Source of the DNA: Oxalobacter sp.
GTDB taxonomy: Bacteria; Pseudomonadota; Gammaproteobacteria; Burkholderiales; Burkholderiaceae_D
Reading direction: 5' to 3'
DNA: 64,000 bases
Assembly: GCA_017524145.1 (NCBI GenBank)
Contig: JAFWUI010000043.1
Span: 87,683 to 151,682 of the forward strand
Part shown: piece after piece, positions 7,605 through 52,875 of the stretch
How positions within the stretch are numbered: position 1 is the first letter of the stretch
How the letters are laid out: the number at the start of each line of letters is the position of its first letter
The notes under the pieces: generated by a model
Database searches by the model: none
What the model was told of the DNA's origin: nothing
What the model saw: only the letters and a program-made list of their open reading frames with translations
Made by a program: the position numbers and the translations under genes

Positions 7605-7607
7605 TTG

Positions 7608-7625: not shown

Positions 7626-7638
7626 TCTGTGGCAGGGG

Positions 7639-9858: not shown

Positions 9859-9874
9859 TGAGCCAAGATTTCGC

Positions 9875-9902: not shown

Positions 9903-9910
9903 AGCGCGCT

Positions 9911-10236
9911 GGAAGCAGACCAGACAGCCGCTGGTTTTCCGCTTTGGCGGAAAACGGGAGGAAGGTCCGGACACCATAGGACAGGATGACGGCTAACGGC
10001 CGTCCGTCGAAACCCGCAAGGGATAAGGCGAGGAATAGGGCCACAGAGACGAGCGTATTCAGTTACGGTGAAACGCGGTAACCTCCATCCGGTGCAATTC
10101 CAAGTAGGCATGCATTGACGTGGTCCGCGGAGCGTGCGGGTAGGAAGCTTGAGCCCATGGGCAACCATGGGTCTAGATGAATGGCTGTCATAGCGCTTCG
10201 GCGCCGTAACAGAATCCGGCCTACCGGTCTGCTTTT
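9911..10236 (+). ncRNA. rnpB: RNase P RNA (bacterial type A)
   Basis: Catalytic RNA of RNase P, which trims the 5' ends of tRNA precursors. The ends pair perfectly as helix P1: 9913-9921 with 10226-10234 (AAGCAGACC with GGTCTGCTT). Inside are conserved elements of the catalytic core: GGAGGAAGGTCCGGACACC near 9957, GAAACCCGCAAGGG near 10009, AATAGGGCCACAGAGACGAG near 10034, GGTGAAACGCGGTAACCTCC near 10068 and ACAGAATCCGGCCTACCGG near 10209. Length about 325 nt is normal. A T-rich stretch follows at once and may end transcription. Confidence 0.97.
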
Positions 10237-10255
10237 TCTTTTCTCCACCCTTTTT

Positions 10256-10301
10256 CAGGTTTTTTGCCAAAAACAGCCTTGTTTGGCAGGCAAAAAACCT
10301 G
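10256..10301. terminator. Long hairpin after rnpB
   Basis: 10256-10268 (CAGGTTTTTTGCC) is the exact reverse complement of 10289-10301, with a 20-base loop that itself contains GCCAAA...TTTGGC. It sits between rnpB and the dcw promoter. There is no run of T after it, so its efficiency is uncertain. The 10302-10482 stretch beyond is AT-rich with no gene I can support. Confidence 0.55.
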
Positions 10302-10482
10302 TTGTCTTTCCGTGATTTCCTGCCTTTTTTTGACGGAAAAATTCCTGAATTTGATATGTTGCTTTCAGTGTATTTTCTAAGTGTGTGATTTATTTCGTTT
10401 TTTACTTTTGTAAATCACTAAAAATGAGTCTCTAAGTCATTGAGTTCATTGAAAAAAATTCTTAAAAACTGTCAAAAACCGC

Positions 10483-10511
10483 TTGACCATGCCTGATGTA
10501 TCCCATAAAGT
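10483..10511 (+). promoter_or_regulatory. Promoter of the division/cell-wall cluster
   Basis: TTGACC (10483-10488) and TAAAGT (10506-10511) are spaced by exactly 17 bases. The -10 box runs into the first MraZ box (10510), so MraZ binding would block the promoter. The expected start point near 10518 gives a short leader before mraZ (ATG 10585). Confidence 0.72.
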
Positions 10512-38000: not shown

Positions 38001-40089
38001 CGCTGAACTGACCAACAGGCTGCCGGCTTTCAGCTCCTTCACCTCTGGAGGGGATGAAATCAGCATCCTCAAGCGTGAACTCGCCAAACAGCGCCGGATT
38101 ATGCCGGTCCGCCGCCTGTTCCAGAAAATCCCGAACCTTGTCCGGATGCTGAAACCCTGCCTGATGATGTCACCGCTGACCGTCAGCCTCTTCCTCGAAT
38201 CCAAGGACTTCATCTTCGATACCGTCATCTTCGATGAAGCCTCCCAGGTCTGCACAGAAAACGCCCTTGGCGCCATCGTCCGTGGCAAACAGGTCATCAT
38301 CGTCGGTGACAGCAAGCAGATGCCGCCGACCAGCTTCTTCAATGTTTCCGCTGACGGCAACTTCGACGAATACGATGAAGAGAACGAAGAAGCCAACGAT
38401 GTCTTCGAATCGCTGCTTGATGAAGCCTCGCTGCTGCCGGAAAAGACACTGCTCTGGCATTACCGCAGCCGCCATGAACACCTGATTGCCTTCTCGAATG
38501 CCGAAATCTACCAGAACCGGCTGGTCACCTTCCCCTCCTGGATGGCAGACATGCCCGACATCGGGGTCGAATACGTCCATGTCCCGGATGGCGTCTATGA
38601 CCGTGGCGGACGCAAAGGCAACGTCAACGAAGCCCAGAAAATCGCTGAGATGGTGTTCGAGCACTTTGAAGCCTGCAGGCAGGGAAGGTTCAACCGCTCA
38701 CTGGGCGTCATCGCCTTCGGGGTTGTCCAGCAGCAGGCGATTGAAGCCGCCCTCCGGCGGATGCGCACAGAACGGCCGGAATACGAAGAATACTTCAACG
38801 AAGGGCTTGAAGAACCGTTCTTCATCAAGAGCCTTGAAAACGTCCAGGGCGATGAACGCGACACCATCATCTTCAGCATCGGCTATGCAAAAGGGGCGGA
38901 CGGCAAGATGGTCATGAACTTCGGCCCGTTGGGGCAGCAGGGCGGTGAACGTCGCCTGAACGTCGCCATCACCCGTGCGAAATTCAACATCAAGCTCGTC
39001 GGTTCCATCCTGCCGACCGACATCGATGTCAACCGCATCTCCACCGATGGGCCGAAACTCCTGAAAGCCTACATGGAATTCGCCATCCAGGGTCAGCAGG
39101 CACTGCCGCCAGCCGCCAAGGCAGACGCCAGCCAGGAAGAACCGCTGGAAACCGCCATCCATGACCTGCTCGTCTCGAAAGGCTATCAGGTCGATACCCG
39201 GATTGGCTGTTCCGGTTACCGCATCGACCTCGCGGTCAGGCATCCAGACCATCCGGGCTGCTATGCCATCGCCATCGAATGTGACGGCGCCTCTTACCAT
39301 GCCGCCAAGACCGCCCGTGAAAGGGACCGCATCCGTCCTGATGTGCTCCAGGGCATGGGCTGGAAGACCTACCGCGTCTGGTCACCGGACTGGGTCAAAG
39401 ACCCACAGTCAGAAGGGCAGCGCCTGATCGAGGCGGTGGAAGACGCCATCAAGAACTTCAGGCTGGATGTTGCGCCACAGGCCACACCGGCACCGAAGGC
39501 CGGAAAAGCTGAAGAACCGAAAGAAGAAATGGTCGTCGTCACTGCGGCTGAAGAAGTTGATGCCGGCAACCCCTACCATTTCGACCCTGCCCCTGAGGTC
39601 GCCGTGCCATCCACCATGTCACCGAAAGGGCCTTTCGGCAGGCAGACCTGCCTGAAATACCTGATCACCACCTATTTCCCGGTCCATGTCGATGTGCTCA
39701 CCAAAGCCATCTATGCCGGCACACCGAAAATCACCCCTGCCATGAAGGCGGAACTCCAGGCGGATATGGTGCAGATTGAGAAAAACGACCTGTACAAACG
39801 CAAAGGCGACTTCTTCTATCCGCCGGTCATCAAGGAAATGCCGGTCAGGCTGAAAGGCAGCCGCACCATCGACCAGATTGCCCAGGATGAAATCCAGGCG
39901 GCATTGCTCAAGGTCGCCAAAACGCGGGTCGGCATCAACCAGGCAGCCCTGATCACCGAGGCGATGCACGGTTTTGGCTTCACCCGCAAGAACCCGAAAC
40001 TCAACGAAGCCTTCTCCGCCGCCTTTGATGACCTGCTCGCAAGGGGCAAAGTCAGCAAAGACGCCGAAGAGGTTGTTTCCGTGCTTTGA
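35035..40089 (+). CDS. DUF4011-helicase-nuclease, candidate antiphage protein (Hhe-like)
   Basis: A 1684-residue multidomain protein. Residues 1 to about 250 resemble DUF4011 (KWKTKLLDLSKRNPLLNFR). A superfamily 1 helicase follows: GPPGTGKSQT near residue 303, then a long alpha-helical insertion, and FDEASQ (about 1066), VGDSKQMPPT, WHYRSRHEHLI, VQGDERDTI and VAITRAKF. About 1390-1450 is a Vsr/DUF559-like nuclease fold (YRIDLAVRHPD, AIAIECDGASYH, WKTYRVWSPDW). The C-terminal 150 residues resemble DUF3320. My unverified recollection is that this DUF4011-helicase-Vsr layout is listed among antiphage genes as Hhe. Its position beside toxin-antitoxin and restriction genes fits. It is intact, with its own promoter region. 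Confidence 0.85.
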   Translation: MAVNLKDKLEKWKTKLLDLSKRNPLLNFRFRKGTNLKIIDPPLLELWDSFVQKEQKITFPLVTEEAAGVTAAAEKPTAKTKAKLDTVTDDTPGERQRALRNLKKKAQLFQEEQGINVLYMAFGFLRWNEKTGAKDFFEAPLILVPVTISWENIRAPFVLGLHEDEIVFNPTLKFMLEDTYGLKIPEFEHEADLKDYIQKLREVLDNKEWSIQEEVGVGLFHFLKLSMYDDLTKNEEAILNSKLIRAIAGDSSAIDFAIPDFSNLDTSDELSPMKTFQVVDADSSQQEAVLCAKKGISFILQGPPGTGKSQTITNIIAECLANGKKVLFVAEKMAALEVVYRRLASVGLGDFCLIMHSHKANKKSVMNQFEQVLHRSEQKITIKNDAYQELVRLDSYKQILNNYSRDIYTEIKPLNKTIYDAYGELTKLEKVPDLPFSIADVRQMSDTRLLELTETLQTLVRSLQGTDGDFSSNPWYGANRIPVLTNELRQGIAMNLQNLQSASRKMTALGNEVKSQLGLDITGTHAGFDAAQGMLASIQQSQPVPASWLLEEGVTAPLAEEISYCRDTQKMFTNTRQEIIGLHEVLRAADPRADFAGFEGLATMAAIQEHQDALQSFIEAAPAYKSLKDANDLPMVEKTLAMLRERADGYAALKETVLGEFEKDILTLDCDTLYRKFRTDYDSMFKLFNSDYRNDKKLIESMSIKVGVELSDEHIIDVLGKLRQMKEHQAFLQEKEPMASQLFGAEYQGIDTDFNALNSHIAVFKTLQSCQQKLTALQTYVGIIDDQDATLKQHYEGLYTGMETDWDAVRSALDWADSFRQAIQPMEDKGTLVQKVCTDNEATKAQAGTYLTRLNEEMAAYNAYNTGFTQFFDNPDSFYTVPFNELDQRYEACLNGMMQLQDWIDYRGAVAKCAQSGLDDFMKQYEAARLPTDQIVPTFQKRFYNLWLDSVMPEYPSVATFRRKQQDALISEFKALDKKQFEVARNRISAELTNRLPAFSSFTSGGDEISILKRELAKQRRIMPVRRLFQKIPNLVRMLKPCLMMSPLTVSLFLESKDFIFDTVIFDEASQVCTENALGAIVRGKQVIIVGDSKQMPPTSFFNVSADGNFDEYDEENEEANDVFESLLDEASLLPEKTLLWHYRSRHEHLIAFSNAEIYQNRLVTFPSWMADMPDIGVEYVHVPDGVYDRGGRKGNVNEAQKIAEMVFEHFEACRQGRFNRSLGVIAFGVVQQQAIEAALRRMRTERPEYEEYFNEGLEEPFFIKSLENVQGDERDTIIFSIGYAKGADGKMVMNFGPLGQQGGERRLNVAITRAKFNIKLVGSILPTDIDVNRISTDGPKLLKAYMEFAIQGQQALPPAAKADASQEEPLETAIHDLLVSKGYQVDTRIGCSGYRIDLAVRHPDHPGCYAIAIECDGASYHAAKTARERDRIRPDVLQGMGWKTYRVWSPDWVKDPQSEGQRLIEAVEDAIKNFRLDVAPQATPAPKAGKAEEPKEEMVVVTAAEEVDAGNPYHFDPAPEVAVPSTMSPKGPFGRQTCLKYLITTYFPVHVDVLTKAIYAGTPKITPAMKAELQADMVQIEKNDLYKRKGDFFYPPVIKEMPVRLKGSRTIDQIAQDEIQAALLKVAKTRVGINQAALITEAMHGFGFTRKNPKLNEAFSAAFDDLLARGKVSKDAEEVVSVL

Positions 40090-40114
40090 GGGAGAAACCA
40101 GCCTGGAGGTTGAG

Positions 40115-40609
40115 ATGAAGATTTTTGAAGCGTTTTTAGCCATGATACTTTCGATATTCCCTGCCTTTGCAACAGGCGGTGCCGTCAGTGACAGGCTGGA
40201 AGGCACCTGGACCGAAACGAGGCAGTACAAAGACTACCCCAGGGCAGTCCTGCATTTCGAGGGGCAGAACCTCCGTTTGGAACACGTGTTTGATGAAGAC
40301 GTGACTGTTGAATACAAGGTCACGGAGCAGAAGGATCCTGATGACTTCACCATCACCTTCGAATACTGGCATAAGGTCAAAAGGGGCAACGGCCGGATCA
40401 TCGATAGGAAAGAATCACGGGATTACCGCTACCACGTCGAGAACGGACGCCCCATCCTGTCAGAAATGGTCTTTGAATACGATGGGCGCGGGCTGATTGT
40501 CTTCGGGGAATTCCTGAAGAAAGATGATTTCACCGATGGCTTCGAGTCCGAGCTCCGGAAGAAGCTGAACAACCGGGAAGCAGTCCCAACCATGATGAAG
40601 ATGGAATAG
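40115..40609 (+). CDS. Secreted protein of unknown function, paralogue 1
   Basis: A 164-residue protein with an N-terminal signal peptide (IFEAFLAMILSIFPAFATGG) and a mature domain opening SDRLEGTWTETRQYKDYPR. It is closely similar along its whole length to the next gene, sharing YKDYPRAVLHF, RGNGRIIDRKES and DYRYHVE, so the pair arose by tandem duplication. The size and beta-rich pattern suggest a lipocalin-like barrel, but this is only a guess. ATG 40115 follows GGAGG. I do not recognise the family. Confidence 0.72.
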   Translation: MKIFEAFLAMILSIFPAFATGGAVSDRLEGTWTETRQYKDYPRAVLHFEGQNLRLEHVFDEDVTVEYKVTEQKDPDDFTITFEYWHKVKRGNGRIIDRKESRDYRYHVENGRPILSEMVFEYDGRGLIVFGEFLKKDDFTDGFESELRKKLNNREAVPTMMKME

Positions 40610-40629
40610 GCATGGGGTTGGAGTGAGAT

Positions 40630-41118
40630 ATGAGGAAAACCGGATTATTGGCAGCAGCACTGCTCGCTGCACTGCCTGTTTTTGCCTATGCCGATGCCTT
40701 CAGTGACAGGCTGGACGGCACCTGGATTGCAACGAAACAGTTCAAAGACTACCCCAGGGCAGTCCTGCATTTTGATGGGCAGAAGCTCCATTTTGAAAAC
40801 CTCTTTGCCACTGCTGCAACCGTTGAATACAAGGTGATTGAACAGGGCAAGGAAGACTTTGTCATCAACTTTGAATACCATCATCAGGTCGAGCGGGGCA
40901 ACGGGCGGATCATCGACAGGAAGGAATCACAGGATTACCGTTACCACGTCGAGGATGGGATTCCCATCCTGTCAGAAAGGGTTTACGAACTTGACGGGCG
41001 GGGCGAGATTATCTGGAAAGAATACCTGCGCAAGGAAAACTTCACCGATGGCTTTGAGTCCCAGCTCAGCAAGAAGCTGAACAGCACCAAACCTGTGCCG
41101 ACGGTTATGGGGGAATGA
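40630..41118 (+). CDS. Secreted protein of unknown function, paralogue 2
   Basis: A 162-residue exported protein with a standard signal peptide (LLAAALLAALPVFAYA) and mature start DAFSDRLDGTW. Tandem copy of the preceding gene: both end in a helical stretch DGFESxLxKKLN. Twenty bases separate them, with GGAGTGAG before ATG 40630, so they are co-transcribed. It differs most in the signal peptide and in the first strand pair. Neither copy has cysteines in the mature part that would suggest a lipoprotein. Confidence 0.74.
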   Translation: MRKTGLLAAALLAALPVFAYADAFSDRLDGTWIATKQFKDYPRAVLHFDGQKLHFENLFATAATVEYKVIEQGKEDFVINFEYHHQVERGNGRIIDRKESQDYRYHVEDGIPILSERVYELDGRGEIIWKEYLRKENFTDGFESQLSKKLNSTKPVPTVMGE

Positions 41119-41131
41119 AACCTTTGCTTAG

Positions 41132-41392
41132 TCAATCATCATAGTGGTCACGGCAGGCAACGACATATACAATGCCATCCTCGACATAATAGACAATGCG
41201 GTTGGTATCATCGATGCGCCTGCTTCATAAGCCGCTCAGATTGTACTTCAGTGGCTCAGGTTTCCCCATACCGTCAAAAGGGCTTCGTTTGATGTCTTGG
41301 ATGAGCGAATTGATTCTTTTCAGCGTTTTCTTGTCCTGTTTCTGCCAATACAGGTAATCATCCCACGCCCTGTCTTCCCATAACAACCGCAT
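41132..41392 (-). pseudogene. yoeB: YoeB/Txe-type toxin, inactivated by an in-frame TGA
   Basis: Reading the reverse strand from ATG at 41392 gives a YoeB-like mRNA interferase: MRLLWEDRAWDDYLYWQKQD, RSPFDGMGKPEPLKYNLSG, and after the break SRRIDDTNRIVYYV and VACRDHYDD. Codon 56 is TGA (41225-41227) where YoeB proteins have the Trp of LSGFWSRRI, so one TGG-to-TGA change explains the break. The lost part contains the catalytic Arg, His and Tyr. The start overlaps the antitoxin stop by one base (TGATG), the usual arrangement. Without readthrough the 55-residue product should be inactive. Confidence 0.85.
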
Positions 41393-41658
41393 CAGTCCAC
41401 CTCTATCAGGTCATGTTCCTGAAAATGGGCTTTGCCTTCTTTGATGTCCTTCATAATCTTTGCCAGATGGCGCATATTGCTATCGGAATAGAATGGATCA
41501 ACCGACACCTCAAACGGTATCCTTCTTTCCCTGCCGACCTTTTTGGCAAAAATCGTAAAAGCAGCACTCATGGAAAGTCCCAGGTCAGCACAGGCCTGCT
41601 CCATGCTTTTTTTGACATCGGCATCCAATTTGAAATTCACACTGACTGTCCGGGGCAT
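41392..41658 (-). CDS. RelB/DinJ-family antitoxin
   Basis: An 88-residue ribbon-helix-helix antitoxin: VSVNFKLDADVKKSMEQACA and LGLSMSAAFTIFAKKVGRE at the N-terminus (operator binding), and a flexible C-terminus with FYSDSNMRHLAKIMKD that would wrap the toxin. AAGGAAG lies just before ATG 41658. The gene is intact while its partner toxin is broken. Antitoxins of this family repress their own promoter; a matching inverted repeat is upstream. Confidence 0.9.
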   Translation of the reverse strand: MPRTVSVNFKLDADVKKSMEQACADLGLSMSAAFTIFAKKVGRERRIPFEVSVDPFYSDSNMRHLAKIMKDIKEGKAHFQEHDLIEVD

Positions 41659-41699
41659 CTTCCTTCTCCATCAAAATACTTTTAAGGACTATCATTCAT

Positions 41700-41749
41700 A
41701 AAGAAATATTACAGCATTTTACTATAAATATTCTTTACAATAGCTGCAA
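41700..41749 (-). promoter_or_regulatory. Antitoxin promoter with overlapping inverted repeat
   Basis: On the reverse strand TTGCAG (41749-41744) and TATAGT (41726-41721) are 17 bases apart. AAAGAAATATT (41700-41710) and AATATTCTTT (41727-41736) form an imperfect inverted repeat around the -10 box, a fitting operator for the ribbon-helix-helix antitoxin. Confidence 0.6.
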
Positions 41750-41842
41750 ATATTGAAAGGTTGATGGTTCTTGAGTCTTAAGACTTTTTGAGTCATTGAA
41801 GCAGTACGGCGGATGATGACTGAAGGATAGCTACTGACTTCC

Positions 41843-41871
41843 ATGACATTGCGTCTGTTTTTGGATATAGT
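41843..41871 (+). promoter_or_regulatory. Probable hsdM promoter
   Basis: ATGACA (41843-41848) and TATAGT (41866-41871) are separated by 17 bases, 46 bases before the hsdM ATG. A 12-bp palindrome AGTCTTAAGACT at 41774-41785 lies upstream and could bind a regulator. Confidence 0.55.
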
Positions 41872-41916
41872 CTATTTAGTTCAGCAACATGGCTAATAAT
41901 CTGAGTCAGGAACGTT

Positions 41917-43443
41917 ATGGCAACAAAGAAAGCAAAGCAGAAAACAGAAGCCAACATTGGGTTCGAGAAACAGATTTGGGATGCAGCCTGCGTCCTTTGG
42001 GGACATATCCCGGCGGCAGAATACCGGAAGGTCATCGTTGGGCTGATTTTCCTGCGTTACATCTCAACCGCTTTCAAGAAAAAATATGACGAGCTGGTTG
42101 CTGAAGGCGATGGTTTTGAAAATGAACCTGACGAATACCTTGCTGATAACATCTTCTTTGTTCCTGAGAAAGCACGTTGGGAAACCATTGCCAAAGCAGC
42201 GCATACCCCTGAAATCGGTATCGTGATTGATGATGCAATGCGGGCGATTGAAGAGGACAACAAGAACCTGAAAAATGTCCTGCCTAAAAACTATGCCAGC
42301 CCTGACTTGGATAAGCGTGTTTTGGGAGATGTTGTTGACTTGTTTACCAACATGGACATGCATGCTACCTCGGAAACCCAAGATTTGTTGGGGCGTGTTT
42401 ATGAATACTGTATCGCCCAGTTTGCCGCTTATGAAGGCGTAAAAGGCGGAGAGTTCTATACACCTTCCAGTATCGTCAAAACCTTGGTTGCTGTGTTGAA
42501 ACCGACAGAAAACTCGCGGCTTTACGATCCGTGTTGCGGATCGGGCGGCATGTTTGTCCAGTCCGTGAAATTCATCCAAGAACATCATGGGCGTCGTGAT
42601 AGGGTTTCTGTCTATTGCCAAGAATCCAATGCAGATACATGGAAAATGGCGAAGATGAACATGGCAATCCGTGGCATTGATGCGGATTTTGGTCCCTATC
42701 AGGCAGATACTTTCCATAATGATTTGCATAAGACCCTGAAAGCAGACTTCATCCTCGCCAACCCGCCTTTCAATCTCTCCAACTATGGCATTGACAAGCT
42801 CAAGGATGATGTCCGCTGGAAATATGGTGTACCACCAGCAGGCAATGCCAACTTTGCATGGATCCAGCATATGATCCATCACCTTGCTCCCAACGGCAAA
42901 ATCGGGCTGGTTTTGGCAAATGGCGCATTATCATCGCAGTCCAGCGGTGAAGGTGAAATCCGTAAGAAGATTATTGAAGATGACCTGATTGAAGGCATCA
43001 TCGCCATGCCGACACAGCTTTTCTACAGTGTCACCATTCCTGTCACACTCTGGTTCATTTCGAGGAATAAAAAACAGAAAGGCAAAACCCTATTTATTGA
43101 TGCCCGTGAAATGGGCTATATGGTGGATCGAAAACACCGAGATTTTGATGACGAAAAGGATATCCAGAAAATTGCAGATACATTCACTGCTTTCCAGGAA
43201 GGCACTTTAGAAGATGTCAAAGGTTTCTGTGCCGTTGTTTCTACAGAAGACATTGCCAAACAAGACTATATCCTGACACCTGGACGGTATGTCGGTATCG
43301 CTGAGCAAGAAGAAGACAGTGAACCATTTGACGAAAAAATGAAACGGCTGACTTCCGAACTGTCAGATTTGTTCAAGCAGTCACATGAACTGCAAGAAAA
43401 AATCCGTAAGAATCTGGGGGCGATTGGTTATGAAATCAAATAA
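41917..43443 (+). CDS. hsdM: Type I restriction-modification methyltransferase subunit HsdM
   Basis: N6-adenine methyltransferase subunit. The 508 residues start with the helical HsdM N-terminal domain (FEKQIWDAACVLWGHIPAAE), then GEFYTPSSIVKTLV, SAM motif I YDPCCGSGGMF near residue 205, catalytic motif IV NPPF near 281 and the late motif LIEGIIAMPTQLFYSVTIP. It is complete. It modifies the site chosen by HsdS and forms the M2S1 core of type I enzymes. Its stop overlaps the start of a half-length hsdS at 43430. Confidence 0.97.
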   Translation: MATKKAKQKTEANIGFEKQIWDAACVLWGHIPAAEYRKVIVGLIFLRYISTAFKKKYDELVAEGDGFENEPDEYLADNIFFVPEKARWETIAKAAHTPEIGIVIDDAMRAIEEDNKNLKNVLPKNYASPDLDKRVLGDVVDLFTNMDMHATSETQDLLGRVYEYCIAQFAAYEGVKGGEFYTPSSIVKTLVAVLKPTENSRLYDPCCGSGGMFVQSVKFIQEHHGRRDRVSVYCQESNADTWKMAKMNMAIRGIDADFGPYQADTFHNDLHKTLKADFILANPPFNLSNYGIDKLKDDVRWKYGVPPAGNANFAWIQHMIHHLAPNGKIGLVLANGALSSQSSGEGEIRKKIIEDDLIEGIIAMPTQLFYSVTIPVTLWFISRNKKQKGKTLFIDAREMGYMVDRKHRDFDDEKDIQKIADTFTAFQEGTLEDVKGFCAVVSTEDIAKQDYILTPGRYVGIAEQEEDSEPFDEKMKRLTSELSDLFKQSHELQEKIRKNLGAIGYEIK

Positions 43444-43954
43444 CGGTTCAGAGGGATACAGCTTTGAGGAAAAATTGCTAGGCGAAGTAATTAATTGCTT
43501 TGACCATAAGCGGATACCTCTCTCAAGTATGGAAAGGTCTAAACGGCAGGGCGTCTATCCATACTATGGTGCCCAAGGCATCATCGATTACGTTAATGAT
43601 TATCTGTTTGATGGAGATTATATTCTTATTGCAGAGGATGGTGAGAATTTAAAGTCACGAAAGAAAGAAATTGCTTCCCTAGTGGATGGTCAGTTCTGGG
43701 TCAATAATCATGCTCATATCATTCAAGCGAATAAGCAAGCTGATAATAAATATCTTTATTATTTATTAAATTTTCTAGATTTGACTCCTTATATTACAGG
43801 TTCAGCCCAACCTAAGTTAAATCAGGCGAGCCTAAAGAATATACAGATTAGATTACCAAATATATCGATTCAAGAAAAAATTGCAGGTTTTCTATCAGAC
43901 TTGGATTCGAAAATTAGGATTAATAATCGCATAAACAGGAATTTACTTCACTAA
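43430..43954 (+). CDS. hsdS: HsdS 5' half (target domain A), truncated at recombination site
   Basis: A 174-residue N-terminal half of a type I specificity subunit: one target-recognition domain (GEVINCFDHKRIPLSS through QFWVNNHAHII and GSAQPKLNQASL) followed by the start of the central conserved helix (IQEKIAGFLSDLDSKIRINNRINRN). It stops three codons into or past the repeat at 43931, LLH then TAA, where a full HsdS would continue. Translation is coupled to hsdM (start 14 bases inside it). Half-subunits can sometimes pair to form a symmetric specificity unit, so it may be functional as it stands. Inversion with either copy on the other strand would complete it in frame. Confidence 0.88.
   Translation: MKSNNGSEGYSFEEKLLGEVINCFDHKRIPLSSMERSKRQGVYPYYGAQGIIDYVNDYLFDGDYILIAEDGENLKSRKKEIASLVDGQFWVNNHAHIIQANKQADNKYLYYLLNFLDLTPYITGSAQPKLNQASLKNIQIRLPNISIQEKIAGFLSDLDSKIRINNRINRNLLH
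43931..43950 (+). repeat. hsdS recombination repeat, left copy (L)
   Basis: ATAAACAGGAATTTACTTCA, coding for INRNLL in the conserved central helix. It is repeated exactly in inverted orientation at 46953-46972. A shorter inverted copy is at 44662-44676, where the shared region extends on the 5' side through ATTAATAATC with two mismatches. It abuts the stop of the opposite-strand hsdS (43951). Confidence 0.88.
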
Positions 43955-45210
43955 ATATTAAGTCTTGACACCTCTAATTCTCCGGACATAAGTTTTGGAA
44001 GTAGCGTATCGAGACATAGTTGCAACCTTTTATTTTCTTCAATATTATTTGCAATTTGCATCCTATAAGTTTCAAGTTGGGGAGCAATCTTTATTTGCTC
44101 TGACATTGGAGGAAGAACAAAAGTAAACTTCTTGAAGTCTTTTAAAACAATTCTTGGCAATGCAGAACCAGAAACATAGTTATCCTTGACATCTTTCATA
44201 ACTGAAGGATGTTTCAATAGATTCAAAAGTATGTCTGGATTTATTATTTCTACATCAGGTCTAAAAATTGCAATTGACGAAAGGATTGCTTCATCACGTT
44301 GTTCATTGCAAATGAATATTTCTTTTAGGTAACTGCCATCTTTTGCCACAAGGATATCATTAACTTTTGGAACACAATCATTTTTTTGCATTTTTAGAAA
44401 ATCATCCAAACTGATGTGTTTGCAGTTAGTATCATTGAACCCATATTTACCCATATCTTTTACCGAAAACATTGGATAAATCGATTTTGGTGAATCTTTT
44501 GGGCTAAAATGAGAACCATCAGTAATTTTTGAACAAACATCATTCAATGAGACAATAGACCAACCTTTTGGAATTGAACGACTGCCAACCTTAACAAGGT
44601 TCTCCTTGTATGGTGTAAAAGCAATAAAATTCTCGTGAAAAAGTGTTTTTGCTTGTTCCTCTAAATTCCTGTTTATCTGATTATTAATAGAGATTTTTTT
44701 CTGTATAGAATCAAGAATATTAGTTACCTTGGATTGGTATGAGGTATTTGGTAATTCTATCTCAATATCTTCAATCATCTCCTTAGTAAGTGCATTTCGA
44801 GTTGCTCCTCCCCCAGCGATAGAGAGCAGATGACGTTTTTTCATTTGCAGGAAATAAAGCAAATATGAAGGCAGCAAATTGGATGAATCTGGTCTTATTA
44901 TTGCTACATGTTGATTGACCCGGGCAGGAAGTACTCTATTGTCAACTTTACAGGTTCTTGCCACAGAATCTCCTGTAATGTTCAATAAGATATCATCTTT
45001 CTCAAGAATCACATTCTTTAATTTTTCTGCTTGTTCATCATTGATAAAAACAAGACCATCATACGAAAAATTAAAGTCTCTGACATTTTGACTTCTGATA
45101 AGAGCAATCCCTTTTTTGCTATAAACTTCTTTCCCTCCTTTGGGGGTTGCACCACTACCAATTTTGGTACAAACTTCCTTTAATGTTGTATTTACCATTA
45201 GATAATTCAT
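43951..45210 (-). CDS. hsdS: Complete HsdS specificity subunit (target domains B and C)
   Basis: A 419-residue full-length specificity subunit on the strand opposite to hsdM. Target domain B (about 5-150, TLKEVCTKIGSGATPKGG, VNQHVAIIRPDSS) is followed by central helix SINNQINRNLEEQAKTL, target domain C (about 205-370, WSIVSLNDVCSKITDGS, ISLDDFL, SGSALPRIVLKDF) and the terminal helix ending LLPKLMSGELEVSRLNI. Base composition is clearly AT-richer than the core genes. ATG 45210 overlaps the recombinase stop (ATGA), so it is expressed with the recombinase, not with hsdM. With HsdM it could form an active methyltransferase in the present orientation. Confidence 0.92.
   Translation of the reverse strand: MNYLMVNTTLKEVCTKIGSGATPKGGKEVYSKKGIALIRSQNVRDFNFSYDGLVFINDEQAEKLKNVILEKDDILLNITGDSVARTCKVDNRVLPARVNQHVAIIRPDSSNLLPSYLLYFLQMKKRHLLSIAGGGATRNALTKEMIEDIEIELPNTSYQSKVTNILDSIQKKISINNQINRNLEEQAKTLFHENFIAFTPYKENLVKVGSRSIPKGWSIVSLNDVCSKITDGSHFSPKDSPKSIYPMFSVKDMGKYGFNDTNCKHISLDDFLKMQKNDCVPKVNDILVAKDGSYLKEIFICNEQRDEAILSSIAIFRPDVEIINPDILLNLLKHPSVMKDVKDNYVSGSALPRIVLKDFKKFTFVLPPMSEQIKIAPQLETYRMQIANNIEENKRLQLCLDTLLPKLMSGELEVSRLNI
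44662..44688 (-). repeat. hsdS recombination repeat, middle copy (M)
   Basis: On the reverse strand: ATTAATAATC, two bases, then ATAAACAGGAATTTA. It matches the left copy over 27 positions with two mismatches, and lies in the central conserved helix of the complete hsdS between target domains B and C. Inverted relative to L. Confidence 0.8.
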
Positions 45211-46193
45211 CCAATAAATTTCTTATGTGCCAGTTTGACATTACTTTGCTTGACCATCGCATACTGCAATGTCGTATCAATCCGTTTGTGTCCCAATAAC
45301 TGTTGCAGTTGTTCGATTGGCATTCCTTTATCGATTGCCATCGTTGCCAGTGTCCGCCGGAATTTATGCGGATGCACCTTGTTAATGGCAAGTTGTCTGC
45401 CGAGTTTCCTTAGTCGGGTTTCGATGCCTCCAATGGTGATACGTTCATGAGGTGAACGCAATCCGACAAACAAGGCAGGGTTGATGTCTTGCCGAGAAGC
45501 CAAATACCCTTGCAGATGCAACTTAGTCCGTGCATCAAAATATACCACACGTTCTTTGTCGCCTTTACCTAAGACTGTACATTCCCGTTCATTGAAACGG
45601 ATATCATCTCTGTTCAATTTGACCATTTCACCGATACGCATACCGGTCGATGCCAGCATATCAATGATAGCGAGATCACGAAGTTCAAGGCAGCTGTCGC
45701 GCATCTGTTCAAGTTCTTCATCGGTGTAGGTTTCTTTGATATTAAGGATGGTTTTTACCTTGTGGATGCGCCTGACAGGGCTTTTGAGGATGTAATCCTC
45801 ATCTTCTAGCCAAGCAAAGAAACTGGACAGGATTCTACGGATGTTATCAATCGTGACACGACTGGATTGATGCTCTTCTTGGTAATCAGTAAGGTACTGA
45901 CGCAGGTCTTCTGTTCTTATCTGTCGGACACCTTTGGCGATACCTGACAGCATCTTGAGGATGGTTGTTCTGTAATAGTGAAGGCTTTTTTTTGAACAGC
46001 CTTCTATGCGTTTGGCAGCGATGAAAGACTGCAATAACTGGATACTGTCATCTGCCTGACTACTGACAGGTTCGGCAATGACCTGATACTGAAAGAGGGT
46101 ATATTCCAGTGTCTGTTGAAGTAGCTTTATCTGGTTGTTGTCTAGGTGGGGCAGCATCTGTTGCACCACATCTGTTATCAGGCGTTGTTTCAT
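45207..46193 (-). CDS. Tyrosine recombinase, probable hsdS invertase
   Basis: A 328-residue tyrosine recombinase with an N-terminal core-binding domain (LLQSFIAAKRIEGCSKKSLHYYR) and a catalytic domain with Arg in LASTGMRIGEMV, Lys in GKGDKERVV, HKFRRTLAT (His-x-x-Arg), LLGHKRIDTTLQYA (His and the Tyr nucleophile). All catalytic residues are present. It resembles XerC/D-type integrases that accompany inverting hsdS loci in other bacteria. AAGGAG lies eight bases before ATG 46193. It sits between two hsdS segments and within the region bounded by the outer inverted repeats, and is followed by hsdS with overlapping ATGA. Confidence 0.93.
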   Translation of the reverse strand: MKQRLITDVVQQMLPHLDNNQIKLLQQTLEYTLFQYQVIAEPVSSQADDSIQLLQSFIAAKRIEGCSKKSLHYYRTTILKMLSGIAKGVRQIRTEDLRQYLTDYQEEHQSSRVTIDNIRRILSSFFAWLEDEDYILKSPVRRIHKVKTILNIKETYTDEELEQMRDSCLELRDLAIIDMLASTGMRIGEMVKLNRDDIRFNERECTVLGKGDKERVVYFDARTKLHLQGYLASRQDINPALFVGLRSPHERITIGGIETRLRKLGRQLAINKVHPHKFRRTLATMAIDKGMPIEQLQQLLGHKRIDTTLQYAMVKQSNVKLAHKKFIG

Positions 46194-46284
46194 AACACAT
46201 TCTCCTTGGATGGTTGTTGGTATCCGGAAGAATGGCTGATGATGGCGTTCTTGTGTAGGGAAAGTATGAGGTTTGGCTAACAGC

Positions 46285-46297
46285 TAAACAGGAATTT
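46285..46297 (+). repeat. hsdS recombination repeat, fourth partial copy
   Basis: TAAACAGGAATTT, 13 bases identical to the core of the other copies, lies just beyond the stop of the right-hand hsdS half and points the same way as L. The right-hand 3' half is thus bracketed by inverted copies, as the domain C half is bracketed by M and L. Confidence 0.65.
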
Positions 46298-46303
46298 TGC
46301 AGC

Positions 46304-46927
46304 TTAGGAGATTAAGTCGGAGAGGTCAATTTCGCCAGACATTAAACGTGGTAGCAGGCCATCTCTCATCTCCGCAAGAGAATCATTTTCAAGCTGATTG
46401 TTAAGAATCTGCTTGAACATTGGAGCAGTCAAACAGTGGAAACGAGAAATCTCGTCATCAGTAGGAATAACAAACGGCATAGCCTTTATGATTTTTGAAT
46501 TGACCGCAGTTGCTATTGAAGATGTACTCCCCATTGTTTGGTAGTTAAAATCCTTCAGATAGCAGTACAGATACTCGTTGATGTAAGGATTATCCGTTTT
46601 GAAATGAGCAATAGCCTCATTTGTGGTCATTTCACCGTGGGTGATAGCAATTCGACCTACCGTGAGTTTGAAACTCAAAAGGACTGTGTTGTTGGGTATA
46701 ACTTTGATGTTGAACTTGTTGACAGCTTCTTGCGTAAGTTGCTCAGAGCTCCTGCGGATATAGGTACCACAGCTGCCCATATCCGAAATGGACACCCAAG
46801 TAACATCAGACGAATCGGTCGTAAACCACTGATGTTCTTTACGGGGAGGAGTTTTGCCGATAGCGATATCAAAATATTCTTCTGCCCGACAAGTTCGATG
46901 CTGATTATTCGCTGTATTGACGAACAT
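46304..46927 (-). CDS. hsdS: HsdS 3' half (target domain D), silent cassette
   Basis: C-terminal half of a specificity subunit: target domain D (FDIAIGKTPPRKEHQWFTT, WVSISDMGSCGTYI, MGSTSSIATAVNSKII) and terminal helix LLPRLMSGEIDLSDLIS. An ATG at 46927 could start a 207-residue product, but the homologous frame runs on upstream through SINRNLLQQAQALYREMF to 46981, directly against the hsdR stop and in the same frame. No promoter or ribosome site of its own is evident, so it looks like a stored cassette. Joined at the repeat to the half after hsdM it would give an HsdS of about 389 residues. Confidence 0.85.
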   Translation of the reverse strand: MFVNTANNQHRTCRAEEYFDIAIGKTPPRKEHQWFTTDSSDVTWVSISDMGSCGTYIRRSSEQLTQEAVNKFNIKVIPNNTVLLSFKLTVGRIAITHGEMTTNEAIAHFKTDNPYINEYLYCYLKDFNYQTMGSTSSIATAVNSKIIKAMPFVIPTDDEISRFHCLTAPMFKQILNNQLENDSLAEMRDGLLPRLMSGEIDLSDLIS

Positions 46928-46952
46928 CTCACGATACAGAGCCTGTGCTTGC

Positions 46953-46972
46953 TGAAGTAAATTCCTGTTTAT
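46953..46972 (-). repeat. hsdS recombination repeat, right copy (R)
   Basis: Exact reverse complement of the 20-bp left copy at 43931-43950, lying ten bases beyond the end of hsdR and opening the domain D cassette. Identity stops abruptly on both sides, as expected of a recombination site rather than of general homology. A palindrome GACTTAAGTC is at 46974-46983. Confidence 0.86.
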
Positions 46973-46981
46973 CGACTTAAG

Positions 46982-49900
46982 TCACTCAACATCCATTACA
47001 TTATCAGTCCAAAGTTCACACTGTGACATGACGGTCTGCATGGCATCTTCCATGCCTTCAGGCGGGTATTTGTGTTTCTTGAGCAGCCTGCGGATCATCC
47101 GGCGCATGGAGGCTCGAGCACTTTCTCGTTTCTGCCAGTCAATGGATTTGTTCTTGCGGAGGGTTTCTGTCAGTTCCTTTGTGAGGGTAATCAGCTCATC
47201 GTGTTCGTAAAAATCCTTGATAGCTTGTGGTTTGGTCAGGGCATCATAAAAAGCCAGTTCATCTTCGGTCAGTCCCAGTTCCTGTCCAGCGTCTTTAGCG
47301 GCTTCAATCTGTCTTGCCAGTTTGATTAGTTCTTGAATGACTTCTTCATTGGTCAGTAAGCCATTGAGATAGCGGTTCAATGATTTCTGGAGGAGTTCAC
47401 TGAATTTTTCAGACTGGACAACATTGGTCCTACGGTAGGTGGAAACTTGGTCTGCGATGAGTTTCTTCAATAATTCAATCGCCAGGTTCTTTTCTTTCAT
47501 CTTGGCGATTTCACTCAAGAAAGCAGGGTCAAACAGTGAGAATTTTTCCTTGGCATCAGAGAACAGGTTGAGGACACCTTCACTCTTGATGCTGGCTTTC
47601 AGCAGATTGTTGATTTGCTCATTGATTTCTTTCAAAGACAGTTTCTTTCCGGTACCTGATGCAGTCAGTTTCACCAGCATGGAACGGACAGCCTCAAAGT
47701 AAGCCGCTTCAAGGCGTTTTTCGGTAGGAACCAATGTTGAGCAGAGTGACAGTGCCTGACGGAGCATCAGTGCTTCTTTGATGAAGGATTCTTTGGTGTC
47801 TTGCTTCTTGGGTGCCACCAAGAAGTTGACCCCGCCGGTAATGGTCTTTGCCCGTTCGAGGTCGGATTTGCCAAAGAAGGCTGAATAGTCGTAGCCGTGG
47901 AAAAGATTCTGACAGATTTCCAGTTTTTCCTGGAATTTCGGCAATGCGACTTTGGCGACATCGGTATCACCATAATTCTTGCGGTCGCGGATGGTGTAGT
48001 CATTCATTGCCTGTTTGAGGGCAGAGGCAATACCGACATAATCCACAACCAGACCGCCTTCTTTCTCTCCAAAGACACGGTTGACACGGGCAATCGCCTG
48101 CATGAGGTTATGTCCTGCCATCGGCTTATAGATATACATGGTGGCAAGGGAAGGCACATCAAAGCCTGTCAGTCACATATCGACAACGATGGCAATTTTC
48201 AACGGTGAATCATTGTCCTTGAATTTGTTTGCCAGTTCGGTCTTATGGGTCTTGTTGCCGATAATCTTGTGCCATTCTTCGGGGTCATTGTTGCCGGATG
48301 TCATGACAACCGCTACTTTCTCCTGCCAGTTTGGACGCAGTGCAAGGATGCGTTTGTAGATTTTCATGGCAATGGGACGGGAGTACGCCACAATCATGGC
48401 TTTGCCGGTAAGCAGGTTGGCACGGTGGTTTTCATAATGGTCAAGGATGTCATCGACAAGGGATTCGATGGTTTTGTCTGCGCCAAGGATGGCTTCCATC
48501 TGCCCCATTTCTTTTTTGCTCTGTTCAATGACATAGGGTTCGGTTTCTTCGGCAAGCTGGTCGTATTTCTGGTCAATCAGTTTCAAGGTAGCTTGGTCAA
48601 GCTTGAGCCTGATGACCCTGCTTTCATAATAGACCGGGCGGGTTGCACCATCTTCCACAGCTTGGGTCATGTCATAGATGTCAATGTAGTTGCCAAAGAC
48701 TTCACGGGTGCTTCTGTCTTTGGCAGATATCGGTGTGCCGGTGAAACCGATATAGGTAGCGTTAGGCAGGCTATTACGGATGATTTGCGCTGTGCCTTTG
48801 ATGATTCTTGCAATATCGTGTCCGCCTTTGTCTTTTTGGATGGATGTCCGTTCAAATCCATAGTGGCCACGATGGGCTTCATCTGCCATCACCACGATGT
48901 TCCTGCGTTCCGAGAGGGCTTCTTCAGATTCCTCGAATTTCTGCATGGTGGTGAAGATGATGCCATTGGCGGTCCTGCCAGCCAGCAGGGATTTCAGGTG
49001 TTCCCGACTGTCTGCCTGAATGGGCGTCTGTCTCAGGAATGCCCGGCATTTGGCGAATTGTCCATAAAGCTGGTCATCTAAGTCATTGCGGTCGGTGATG
49101 ACTACAATGGTTGGGCTTTCAAGTTTTTCTTGGAGCAGGTGAGCGTAGAAAACCATTGACAGTGACTTGCCACTACCTTGGGTATGCCAGAAAACCCCGC
49201 CTTTGCCATCCGTTTTGGTTGCCTTTGCTGTGGATTCAATGGCTTTCCTGACTGCAAAGTACTGATGATAGCCTGCCATAATCTTGAAGGTGTTCGTTCC
49301 TTCATCAGAAAAACAGACAAAATTCTTGATGATGTCGAGTAGCCGTTCTTTTTGATAAATGCCTTGGAAGAACGTGTCAAACTGGGCGAATTGGGTATTT
49401 TCATAGCTGCCGTCCACCGTCTTCCATTCCATATAACGGTCTTCATTGGAAGTGATGGTTCCTGCCTTGGAGATGAGCTGGTCACTCATCACGCAGTTGA
49501 CGTTGTAAATGAAAAGGGAAGGGATTTCCTGCATATAGTTCCGCAACTGGCGGTAGGCTGCTGAGGCATCAGCTTCTTCCCTGGATGGTGATTTCAGCTC
49601 AGCGATGACAATCGGGATGCCGTTCAGGAACAGGACAATATCAGGACGTTTCTCACTGTGTTCAATGAATGTCCACTGATTGGCAATGATGAAGGAATTG
49701 TTTTCTGGTCTCCGGTAATCGGCGAGGTAAATGCGGGTTGTCCGTTCACCATCCTTTTCATGGTAACGGGCTTCTATGCCATTCTGAAGATAATCCATGA
49801 AGAGCTGGTTTTTCTGGACAAGTGAGGCGTTCTCAAAATTTTTCAGTTTGTCCAAAGCATTGGTCAGGGCCTCTTCCGGAGCTCCCTTATTGATCCGCTG

Positions 49901-50044
49901 GATGCTGTCTTCCAGAACATCCATATAAAGCGGGTTCCGATAATCCCTTTCGATGTCAGGACCATAAACATGGTCATATCCCATATTGATGAAAAGTTCT
50001 ATCAGGGAATTCTCATAGGATGCTTCCGTAAAGGCTGATGTCAT
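46982..50044 (-). pseudogene. hsdR: Type I restriction subunit HsdR, interrupted by an in-frame TGA
   Basis: Reads as a normal HsdR of about 1020 codons except for TGA at 48173-48175 (codon 624). N-terminal nuclease residues RPDIVLF and IAELKS, helicase Walker A HTQGSGKS, DEAHRGHYG and, after the stop, [22 protein letters not shown] are all kept in one frame. The break falls in the conserved [12 protein letters not shown] motif, with TGA replacing TGG, so the upstream piece is 623 residues and ends before the last helicase motifs. I start at ATG 50044 (AAGGAT six bases before). With C following the TGA, some readthrough is possible. Otherwise the system cannot cut DNA. Confidence 0.88.
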
Positions 50045-50065
50045 AGCGGTATCCTTATATGGCAA

Positions 50066-50700
50066 TCCGACTTGATAATTTTACATGACTATTCCAGTGA
50101 CCAATGCTTGGTTGATAGTTACCGCAGGGCATATTTCTGCTTAAGAAATCATCTGTACTAGCTCTTGATGGTTGGAACCAGAGGTATTTGGAGTTCGTTA
50201 GGGAATGGGCTGATTCTGTCGAGAAGAGGATTGCAGAATGTCGAATTGGACTGAGAAGAAAATCGACCATGCCAGTATTTCTTCACCCGCAGAGGTGGCT
50301 CAGGTGGGCAGCGGTTTTTCCAGACAGCTTTCTGGCAGTCAATTTGCCCTGGCAGGGCAGGACTGTTATAATACGACCATACTCCGGTACTGGTTCCGGG
50401 AAGCCCGCCCAGCGACATTCGATGATTGCCTTGGCCATCCAAGGTGCAGCGCTGAAGGCAGACCAATCAGGATAGATTCCGGACTGATAAAGAGTCAAAC
50501 CTCATCCTGGATGATGAGCAATCCCTCTTTCCGATGCCTGTAGGCAGGCTTTATTGCGCCTGCCCGCGATGAACTGACAGAGCAAAACATTCTTGTTTAG
50601 AATTTATTTTGCACGTCGGTTCCTAAAAAGTTGGTTTAGAGGTGTAACCGACCAGTCCGTGCTGGCGGTTATGGTTCTCAATAAATACTGAAAGAAGATT
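50066..50700. other. Intergenic stretch upstream of hsdR, no supported gene
   Basis: Only overlapping short frames without recognisable similarity or good ribosome sites. I see two hairpins: GGCAGGC (50543-50549) with GCCTGCC (50558-50564), and TAACCG...CCAG with CTGG...CGGTTA (50645-50671), the second just ahead of the small gene at 50701. Presumably holds the hsdR promoter on the reverse strand and that of the next genes on the forward strand. Confidence 0.4.
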
Positions 50701-50880
50701 ATGGATAAAGATATTTTTAAAAAAATTTCACGTATCCGTACCAGAATGAGACGTATTTCTCTTGCGTTGCGTCAGGTTGGAGGTCAGCGGGACACACGGA
50801 TAGATTCTGAACATTCGGGACTTAGTAAATCCGAAAACAGGAGTGATTTCTATGAAGAAATTAGATTCAAAGAATTTTGA
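50701..50880 (+). CDS. Small basic protein, 59 residues, overlapping the next gene
   Basis: ATG 50701 is preceded by AAAGAAGA and opens MDKDIFKKISRIRTRMRRIS, rich in Lys and Arg. The frame ends at 50880, 28 bases inside the next gene, so translation of one could affect the other, in the manner of a coupling leader. No family recognised. It may be a true small protein or a leader peptide; I cannot tell which. Confidence 0.45.
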   Translation: MDKDIFKKISRIRTRMRRISLALRQVGGQRDTRIDSEHSGLSKSENRSDFYEEIRFKEF

Positions 50881-52741
50881 GGATAAACTCCAGCGATGTT
50901 TTCCTAGGGACCGGTTCTATACGGCTCCAGTATGTGCCCGTCGTTCGGTTGACATGCAGCTTGAACCTAGGGTTATTGCAACGGAATTTTTGGCTTATGC
51001 ATATGCCCGCAAGAAAAATGAGCTTAATAAGATAGAAAAATTATCTCTTGAGATTATTTTGGATGAGTACGCTGAAGAATACCCTGTCTTCGGATATATC
51101 CGAAAGGCATATTGGTTGAGAGAAGCCATATCGAAACAGGAATTGGGCAAACCGACGCTTTCTTATCTGGAGATCAACGAGAACGCAACAGACGAGGAAA
51201 TTGGTTTAAGTGCCTGCTTGGAATTTTTTAGGGGGGATTCGTACTTTTGCCAAGGAACCAACTACATCCCTAACTTGGGAGACATTGTTTCCGACTGGCG
51301 TGACGGCGATGCTCCGGTTCTTCTGCTGATGCCCGAAATGGGTTTTCTTCCATATCAATTGGCGATGAATGGCATCAACAGTGTTGTCCGGTGCCCCTAT
51401 TTGCCAGATGTTGAATTGGCAGGGCTTCTAAGTCCTTTGGTCGAGGGGCGTATTCAGTTTGAGCTGACCAAGAAAGAGGATATTTATAAAGCATACACGG
51501 GACCCATATCGTCAGTCATCTGCCTGGCAACGCCCCAACTGATGCTAAGGAATACGAACAAGCGTGCCAAAAGACAAAGGTTGGGTGTTTTAGAAAAACT
51601 GCATAGATGGCATTCTGGGAAAGTTGTACTTTGCACGATGCAAGACAGGCTTCTGGATAAGCAGGAGGAAGCAGAGGAACTGAAGATTCGTGAAAAAATG
51701 GTGAAATCTGGCTGGGTGCGTAAGATTGTCCAGATTCCTGCCAAGATTCCTTCTGATGGCTATAGACAGCCGGTTATGCTGTATGTCGATTTTGCCGCGC
51801 AGCGGTTCACTGGTGTACAGATGGTTAACCTCTCTGACGACCGGTTTACAGAAAAGGACGGTCCGTATCGCTGGCTCAAAATTGAAGTGGTGAAGCCACT
51901 ACTGTTCACGCATAAGGGATCCGGTGACCCTTCCAATGTGGATTTTTCACGGTTACTGGAACGCCCTATTGCCTTGGAAATGACCGATGCGTTGAGCGGT
52001 GTGTCTGAGTATGCAGACTATACTTGCATCTGTTCCTTGGACGAAATGCGGGAAAACGGGTTCAGTCTTGATGTCTTGCGCTATCTGATTGGTTCAAGGA
52101 ACCGTATGTGGTTCCAGCTTGCGTCGGAAAGTAGGGTTGTTTTACCGGATATTGACGATTTGATTGCTTTTCAGGATCTGCCGCTGGCATCGGCGGATGA
52201 AGATGGCATAGACTGCCTGATGGTAGAGCCGGAAGACTTGGAGGTTGATGGTGGTGTGCGTCAGCCGACCAGACAGGTCAGGGTCACGCGGGAAGGATTT
52301 GCCCAATGTCGGGTGCAGCGGAACGATATCCTGTTGGCACGGCATGGGAGCAAGGAACAGCTGGGCAAAATCGCTTTGCTGGTCGAGAAATGCCCGGATA
52401 ATTGGGTTGCCAGCCCATCGCTGATGATTATCCGTCAGAAAAAGACTGAAAGAGTCGGAGACTGGCAGGAAAAACCATGGTATTGGTCTCAAGAACAGGT
52501 TTACCGCTACCTGACTTCTGATGCAGTGACAGCCTATCTGAAAAGCAAGATGTGGAATCCTCATGCCAGTGCTTTCCCGACCCGTTACCTGGAGAGCCTG
52601 CCAATGGTGATGGCTGATAATTATGCCGTTGCAGCAGAAATATTCAGGTTCAGGCAACGCATGGAAATCCTGCTGGAAAACAGGAAGAACAGTACCCCGA
52701 ATCCATATATGACCAAAAATCAGGTCAAAAGATTGATCTAA
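50852..52741 (+). CDS. HsdM-HsdS-like fusion with missing methyltransferase motifs
   Basis: A 629-residue protein whose plan resembles an N6-adenine methyltransferase joined to a specificity domain. Where motif I should be, near residue 157, it has LLLMPEMGFLPYQLA; where NPPF should be, near 220, it has ICLATPQLML. The following LHRWHSGKVVLCTMQDRLLD and IREKMVKSGWVRKIVQIPAK mirror the late strands of HsdM. Residues 475-620 (CRVQRNDILLARHGSKEQLGK, VASPSLMIIRQ, AFPTRYLESLPM) resemble an HsdS target domain. I infer a catalytically dead, DNA-binding relative; this rests on reading by eye. ATG 50852 has AGGAG eight bases before it. No restriction gene is next to it. Confidence 0.6.
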   Translation: MKKLDSKNFEDKLQRCFPRDRFYTAPVCARRSVDMQLEPRVIATEFLAYAYARKKNELNKIEKLSLEIILDEYAEEYPVFGYIRKAYWLREAISKQELGKPTLSYLEINENATDEEIGLSACLEFFRGDSYFCQGTNYIPNLGDIVSDWRDGDAPVLLLMPEMGFLPYQLAMNGINSVVRCPYLPDVELAGLLSPLVEGRIQFELTKKEDIYKAYTGPISSVICLATPQLMLRNTNKRAKRQRLGVLEKLHRWHSGKVVLCTMQDRLLDKQEEAEELKIREKMVKSGWVRKIVQIPAKIPSDGYRQPVMLYVDFAAQRFTGVQMVNLSDDRFTEKDGPYRWLKIEVVKPLLFTHKGSGDPSNVDFSRLLERPIALEMTDALSGVSEYADYTCICSLDEMRENGFSLDVLRYLIGSRNRMWFQLASESRVVLPDIDDLIAFQDLPLASADEDGIDCLMVEPEDLEVDGGVRQPTRQVRVTREGFAQCRVQRNDILLARHGSKEQLGKIALLVEKCPDNWVASPSLMIIRQKKTERVGDWQEKPWYWSQEQVYRYLTSDAVTAYLKSKMWNPHASAFPTRYLESLPMVMADNYAVAAEIFRFRQRMEILLENRKNSTPNPYMTKNQVKRLI

Positions 52742-52875
52742 GGTGTTCTTCCTTGCCGGAAGACCGGCAGTCAAGGCTGCACCTGGCAATTCCGGCCAGG
52801 GGCGGTTTTGTTTCTGGAAGGCAAACTGGTAATATCTTGCCAACAGGTTATTGGATTGATTGAAAGGAGGTAGGC

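Follow-up and report, generated by a model that had tools for sequence, protein, structure and literature searches.

The closest described system found for the locus discussed here is SsuCC20p of Streptococcus suis, a type I restriction-modification system in which hsdM and hsdR are accompanied by four recognition domains with a tyrosine recombinase in their midst, 14-bp inverted repeats surrounding both 3' halves of its specificity gene, hsdS (PMC10790761, PMC5198162; for all published systems I draw on parts of the cited papers). Each S. suis assembly in which the locus is complete has one complete hsdS, as do the long reads; switching needs the recombinase, methylomes were measured, and the hsdS behind the recombinase is transcribed and methylating (PMC10790761). 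Similarly, SpnIII/Spn556II (cod) of Streptococcus pneumoniae has a tyrosine recombinase, PsrA/CreX, within a type I locus that inverts hsdS parts through a 15-bp repeat, with three repeat pairs of 15, 298 and 85 bp and one functional hsdS position (PMC4948785, PMC7096588), and in inverton group 145 of gut isolates, known from group statistics, invertons overlap hsdS and tyrosine recombinase genes are enriched nearby (PMC11892184). In this article I describe a locus of the SsuCC20p kind from a gut-type bacterium, Oxalobacter, lying in a 64,000-nucleotide stretch of contig JAFWUI010000043.1 (the window), which is very probably a type I restriction-modification island, acquired horizontally, in which a resident tyrosine recombinase reshuffles the specificity subunit, HsdS, at four short sites. 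An original prediction, made from the letters of the window, had called it an hsdS shuffler that inverts by means of a tyrosine recombinase of its own, and the sites, the reading frames and the recurrence of the four-site arrangement in 87 of 160 loci support this call well.

In the mechanism proposed, four sites of alternating orientation would flank the 3' half C, a cassette of the recombinase with the 5' half B, and the 3' half D; a crossover inside a site would fuse 5' and 3' halves in frame, and inversions between opposite sites would swap the 3' halves between half A, which follows hsdM, and half B, which follows the recombinase, with four HsdS proteins possible (A/C, A/D, B/D and the present B/C). 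I infer that the window copy is active and that each state would be expressed with its methylation motif. Domain searches place the parts where they had been predicted (Table 1), with half A after hsdM and, on the opposite strand, a complete hsdS, the recombinase and a 3' half; a Methylase_S profile search of the whole 87%-complete genome gave four matches at E ≤ 0.001, all inside the hsdS locus. The recombinase scores 229.7 bits against the XerA-like model NF040815, just over the cut-off of 220, and its PHROGs matches are to integrase families and one family of unknown function, nothing else. The predicted full set of catalytic residues is also there, R186, K210, H276, R279, H302 and Y311 standing at the R-K-H-R-H-Y catalytic positions of the family, which are invariant in an eight-sequence alignment except H302 (L031 differs there). 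Compared with SpnIII/cod, where the mutated tyrosine of the recombinase is Y247 rather than Y311 (PMC4948785, PMC7096588), the window lacks several repeat pairs of up to hundreds of bp and has one family of 13-14 nt sites.

Table 1. Features of the locus, in window positions
Feature	Positions	Strand	Remarks
hsdM, type I DNA methyltransferase subunit	41917..43443	+	N6_Mtase 1.6e-105, HsdM_N 1.2e-23
5' hsdS half A, first recognition domain	43430..43954	+	truncated in present state; Methylase_S 8.2e-27
Site L, TAAACAGGAATTTA	43932..43945	+	within 20-nt exact repeat 43931-43950
3' hsdS half C	43951..44661	-	now joined to B; one of two Methylase_S stretches in complete gene
Complete hsdS B/C, 419 aa	43951..45210	-	Methylase_S, two stretches, 1e-27
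Site M, TAAACAGGAATTTA	44662..44675	-	
XerA-like tyrosine recombinase, 328 aa	45207..46193	-	Phage_integrase 7.4e-29; NF040815
Site X, TAAACAGGAATTTT	46285..46298	+	noncoding, about 92 bp upstream of recombinase start
3' hsdS half D	46304..46957	-	without 5' half, 5' end at site R; Methylase_S 1.4e-8
Site R, TAAACAGGAATTTA	46958..46971	-	10 bp from hsdR stop codon
hsdR, convergent with hsdM	46982..50065	-	in-frame TGA at 48173-48175; HSDR_N and SWI2_SNF2 in one frame, T1RH-like_C in next
Island, about 11.8 kb, missing in congener G004	41084..52863	.	empty site; left edge 40605 or 41084, depending on which tandem similar gene is matched

The exact 20-nt inverted repeat at 43931-43950 and 46953-46972, and a 15-nt copy at 44662-44676, were found as the original prediction had them, and a fourth site, X, had escaped its three-copy set. 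Sites L, M and R share all 14 nt and 13 nt are common to all four, X ending in T instead of A; the four alternate in orientation (+,-,+,-) and follow the pattern TAAA-6 nt-TTTA, with CAGGAA in the middle where SsuCC20p has TCATCA. Allowing up to three mismatches, ATAAACAGGAATTTA occurs five times in the window against 0.93 expected, a count reached in none of 100 shuffles, and the five are the three exact copies, site X with two mismatches and one three-mismatch match at 45578. Exact shared sequence in the window is only 13-20 nt long, and the longest other near-repeats, 36-47 nt at 72-83%, lie around the same sites. The L/R match takes in 'cttca', and a repeat homology reaching well beyond the site was rejected, since the two right flanks diverge from there on. 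Coding copies of the site encode the I-N-x-N-L codons of an HsdS helix, and conservation as a mere by-product of these codons was likewise rejected, because noncoding-side positions are kept; where the left flank of a site is noncoding, as it is upstream of the recombinase and towards hsdR, 88-89% of sites have T at -1 and 95-97% have A at +12, two positions that the site search pattern left free.

All four joined products are in frame, at 389 aa for A/D, 408 aa for A/C, 419 aa for B/C and 400 aa for B/D, and the present assembly holds exactly one complete hsdS, which is B/C, as predicted. From this state, L-M inversion would yield A/C, again in agreement with the prediction in frame and length; M-X inversion would leave no complete gene and X-R inversion would keep B/C; and L-R inversion would give the predicted in-frame A/D together with B/C, whose staying complete had been omitted. 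Inversion among four sites can reach 16 arrangements, 12 with one complete hsdS, two with two and two with none. With only L, M and R, four arrangements are reachable, offering A/C, A/D and B/C and never B/D; the fourth specificity is reachable because site X is present, and it is with X that the up to four specificities expected from two 5' and two 3' halves become possible.

Now considering the wider family, at least 527 relatives of the recombinase occur in named genomes, the best 80 of which were kept, and further loci were added from plasmid and phage records picked from the best matches and from samples of 392-395 genomes of each of three orders; the fetched loci are a non-random sample in which related loci are not independent. 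Among the best 80 of the 527, 70 carry names taken as Bacillota, and the 10 others, mostly metagenome-assembled genomes, are Succinivibrionaceae, Ruminobacter (two), an unnamed proteobacterium, Treponema, Spirochaetia, Bacteroidales, Prevotellaceae and two labelled Cyanobacteria or Gastranaerophilales. Recombinase relatives of 60-63% identity adjoin hsdS on plasmids of Ligilactobacillus, Enterococcus and Lactococcus and in a Fusobacterium record, while a Methanosphaera plasmid carries a 56% relative with no annotated hsdS nearby. Read in the frame of hsdM, 56 of 77 loci share one plan: hsdM, A, a 3' half, recombinase, B, a 3' half and then hsdR where the stretch extends so far. A repeated-word search that was blind to the site and left the word free found a word of 11-16 nt four times as +,-,+,- in 63 of 75 loci, the remainder being seven without such a word, four with three, five or six copies and one with four in another order. 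The pattern search demanded the same word at all sites of a locus (sameness within a locus is thus a condition and not a finding) and detected this quartet in 87 of 160 loci, with 13 different site words; L052 and L166, which are the two units of a locus that has been duplicated, are counted separately. Ten shuffles of each positive locus gave a quartet around the recombinase in 0 of 870, and the 73 other loci comprise 8 duplicates and 65 without a quartet. The recombinase-side site, by a spacing measure that includes the 12-nt word, stands at 104 in the window against a median of 105 in the 87 quartet loci, 19 of which have it at least 177 bp away; the ATG of B/C overlaps the recombinase stop as ATGA, an overlap shared by 6 of the 87. 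At 2894-8112 of L052 there are six alternating sites and a recombinase-hsdS unit repeated at a spacing of 2274 bp, which looks like the outcome of unequal exchange at the sites. Five loci without a quartet (L145, L162, L164, L165 and L182), with recombinases 53-63% identical, possibly follow another rearrangement scheme.

Rearranged states were found directly in relatives. Four Lactococcus plasmids, 100% identical over A (599 bp compared), recombinase-B (1583 bp) and the hsdR side (686 bp), occupy three states: JM2 and UC073 have A/P with Q reversed, UCCL627 has A/Q with P reversed, and JM1 has B/P, with a second copy of P and no Q at either position. At their sites the left flanks stay and the right flanks are exchanged, which places the crossover in the 14-nt site or in the few flank-shared bases beside it. 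If the 3' halves were excised and reinserted through direct sites, the first pairing with the third and the second with the fourth, they would be swapped uninverted; between UCCL627 and JM2 both are inverted, so inversion fits the exchange better. The presence of one 3' half twice, in JM1 and in the congener G001, suggests exchange between molecules too; in G001 (locus L025) the 3' hsdS halves at 7592-8249 and 9838-10495 are identical over 658 bp, a duplication like that in JM1 (L118). A further pair, L046 and L047, is 100% identical in A and 99.9% in recombinase-B, with the first segment inverted at 99.8% and second segments that do not match each other; no inversion was seen among three L. 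salivarius loci compared alike, and near searches of L. salivarius and E. faecium plasmids found no inverted twin.

Could homologous recombination between similar hsdS genes do the same work, with the recombinase as a passenger? Pneumococcal spnIII, going by the title of PMC6620402, reportedly recombines independently of all known pneumococcal site-specific recombinases, hsdS halves are repeated, and the congener has two identical copies of one 3' half. Furthermore, inversion at the larger pneumococcal repeats continues when the recombinase is absent (PMC4948785, PMC10790761), though strongly reduced according to PMC7096588. However, the window offers only the 13-20 nt of exact shared sequence, the Lactococcus exchange took place at a 14-nt site, noncoding site copies are kept, and switching in S. 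suis needs xerD (PMC10790761), which together make this explanation very improbable.

The recombinase lies on the hsdM strand in 78 of the 87 quartet loci and on the reverse strand in 6, including the window, with 3 unplaced, which is to say that the recombinase-B cassette is inverted relative to hsdM in 6 of 84 placed loci. In SsuCC20p the hsdM strand is a state and not a strict requirement, and its complete hsdS, as in the window, may sit behind the recombinase; the inverted state is not seen in S. suis in the parts of the papers drawn on here, and the recombinase is inverted in five S. agalactiae strains, in which the repeats have been lost (PMC10790761, PMC5198162). The locus of the congener G001 resembles the window in its four alternating sites, inverted cassette and order of parts, and differs in its site core, TAAATCATCATTTA, in an hsdR that is open and on the hsdM strand, and in the doubled 3' half. 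This core is the published SsuCC20p repeat, exact also in Enterococcus and Lactococcus sites, and the recombinases of three loci that carry it (L025, L028 and L030) are 60-62% identical to that of the window.

A census of states, with segment orientations taken in the recombinase frame, covered 76 of the 78 common-orientation loci, leaving aside L166, a second unit, and L171, which has one unscored half. Only B is complete in 41, only A in 31, neither in 4 and both in none; exactly one complete hsdS is thus found in 72 of 76 (Fisher p 2.7e-17, indicative only), and p becomes 4.8e-16 when the unplaced L123, a 3.2-kb stretch that looks complete at both, is counted in. The state that L-R inversion would produce in the window, with A/D and B/C both complete, is matched in 0 of 76. 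Outside the quartet set the rule is not general: in the five loci named above each side of the recombinase has two specificity domains that lie on one strand, and in L038 and L161 neither hsdS is complete. Selection favouring a single specificity at any time would account for the census, as would coordinated double recombination, which the SsuCC20p authors also name (PMC10790761). A more elaborate version is rather doubtful: two site pairs throughout the quartet family would be resolved in one synapse, A going on as B goes off with exactly one complete hsdS, and the window would be mirror-symmetric through its flipped hsdR (hsdM reading into A; hsdR through D and the recombinase into B), such that both cassette orientations could be transcribed and the interrupted hsdR would leave a pure methylation switch.

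The convergent hsdR of the window had been recognized in the original prediction, but not the TGA within its frame. The nuclease and first motor domains are encoded in the first piece, and a T1R_D3-like domain remnant and the C-terminal domain in the second; the two share one open frame in 67 of 69 loci, the window and L065 having them in different frames (this is the unbiased count, as an earlier motif count of 68/68 covered open frames only). Reading of the TGA as an amino acid was rejected, because the recombinase and hsdR themselves end in TGA. An open hsdR, the mark of a functional type I restriction-modification system, is thus absent from the window unless the TGA is a sequencing or assembly error, and restriction has probably been lost in this strain under the same proviso. 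Type I methylation does not need HsdR, and the strain may switch methylation without restricting. Since hsdR is flipped, D, the recombinase and B/C lie on its strand and downstream of it, and its transcription could serve all three; promoter and terminator scans gave 20 against 16.8 +/- 3.9 in shuffles and 6 against 7.6 +/- 2.3, no clear excess in either. With hsdR opposite to hsdM in 2 of 70 loci that have both genes (the window and L108, duplicates kept), the layout is rare, as had been supposed, although the plan as a whole belongs to a widespread element, SsuCC20p being the best studied example found.

Several observations weigh against a working shuffler in this host. Site X, with its altered last base, may work less well, the locus could be decaying, given the interrupted hsdR, and one state is known for the window species, from one assembly; these same three facts would suit a frozen relic, that is, an imported shuffler that no longer moves and keeps a fixed B/C with dead spare halves. 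Against such a relic stand the open recombinase frame with its catalytic positions kept, the identity of L, M and R over 14 nt and four products that are all still in frame, and I consider it unlikely. The proposed shuffler also has against it the report on spnIII mentioned above and the 65 non-duplicate loci without a quartet, some of which are cut by contig or stretch ends while others have more distant recombinases, some of these sitting between two apparently complete hsdS genes.

The evidence for horizontal acquisition of the island begins with the congener G004, which is collinear with the window contig on both sides and in which the matches to window positions 40604 and 41083 lie 17 and 47 bp from the match to 52864, leaving 11.8-12.3 kb missing. 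The G+C content falls to 34% at the hsdS genes, compared with 49-60% outside the island. Within the fetched loci, identity to the window reaches 85% for hsdM (84.8%, L070), 75-77% for the two hsdR pieces and 77% for the recombinase, and all three genes are closer to loci of mostly Bacillota than to congener G001, where hsdM is 53%, hsdR 39-41% and the recombinase 61% identical; from these low identities, the window and G001 loci were probably acquired separately. In a set of 60 genomes drawn from the genus, its family and its order, that of the window included, G001 alone has another close recombinase relative (62%) among the matches listed, the others reaching at most 39%. Oxalyl-CoA decarboxylase scores above the cut-off in 12 of 13 genomes of the genus but in 1 of 14 controls, which points to Oxalobacter or a near relative. 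The window assembly is fragmented (55 contigs, 87% complete), and repeats could mislead an assembler into a mosaic of a mixed population that no cell carries; yet the repeats are exact over 20 nt at most, the contig order matches G004 on both sides of the island, and the single-contig G001 has its cassette in the same inverted orientation, so I give an assembly artefact hardly any credence.

The neighbourhood holds further candidates. Beside hsdR and inside the island, 50843-52741 (+) encodes a 632-aa protein with no Pfam or PHROGs match; in its weak PADLOC matches, to type I specificity over residues 451-562 (4e-6) and to methyltransferase (6e-4), it resembles a degenerate fusion of methylase and specificity subunits. 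A RelB-type antitoxin gene (41392-41658, -) lies at the island edge, and two tandem similar small proteins, of 211 and 162 aa as open frames (39974-41118, +), stop immediately ahead of the island. At 35035-40089 (+) is a 1684-aa helicase-like protein matching the PADLOC candidate-defence family PDC-S37 at 1402.8 bits, which is outside the recent island, as it is conserved at the same place in G004.

No paper on such a locus in Oxalobacter was seen among those listed in the literature searches, which covered few subscription papers. What is new in comparison with SsuCC20p is the host, the locus-specific site, the inverted cassette with a convergent and interrupted hsdR, and the census across loci. 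A survey of REBASE counted only exact repeats of at least 20 bp (PMC7394358), a limit that would miss family loci with repeats of 13-19 nt and that the 20-nt L/R pair of the window just reaches. These observations place a recombinase-linked specificity switch in Oxalobacter and show its four-site plan to recur in loci of several phyla. Moreover, the SsuCC20p authors left open how two recognition domains swap together (PMC10790761), and the census of states, combined with site middles that are specific to each locus, makes coordinated double recombination, as opposed to independent flips under selection, directly testable.

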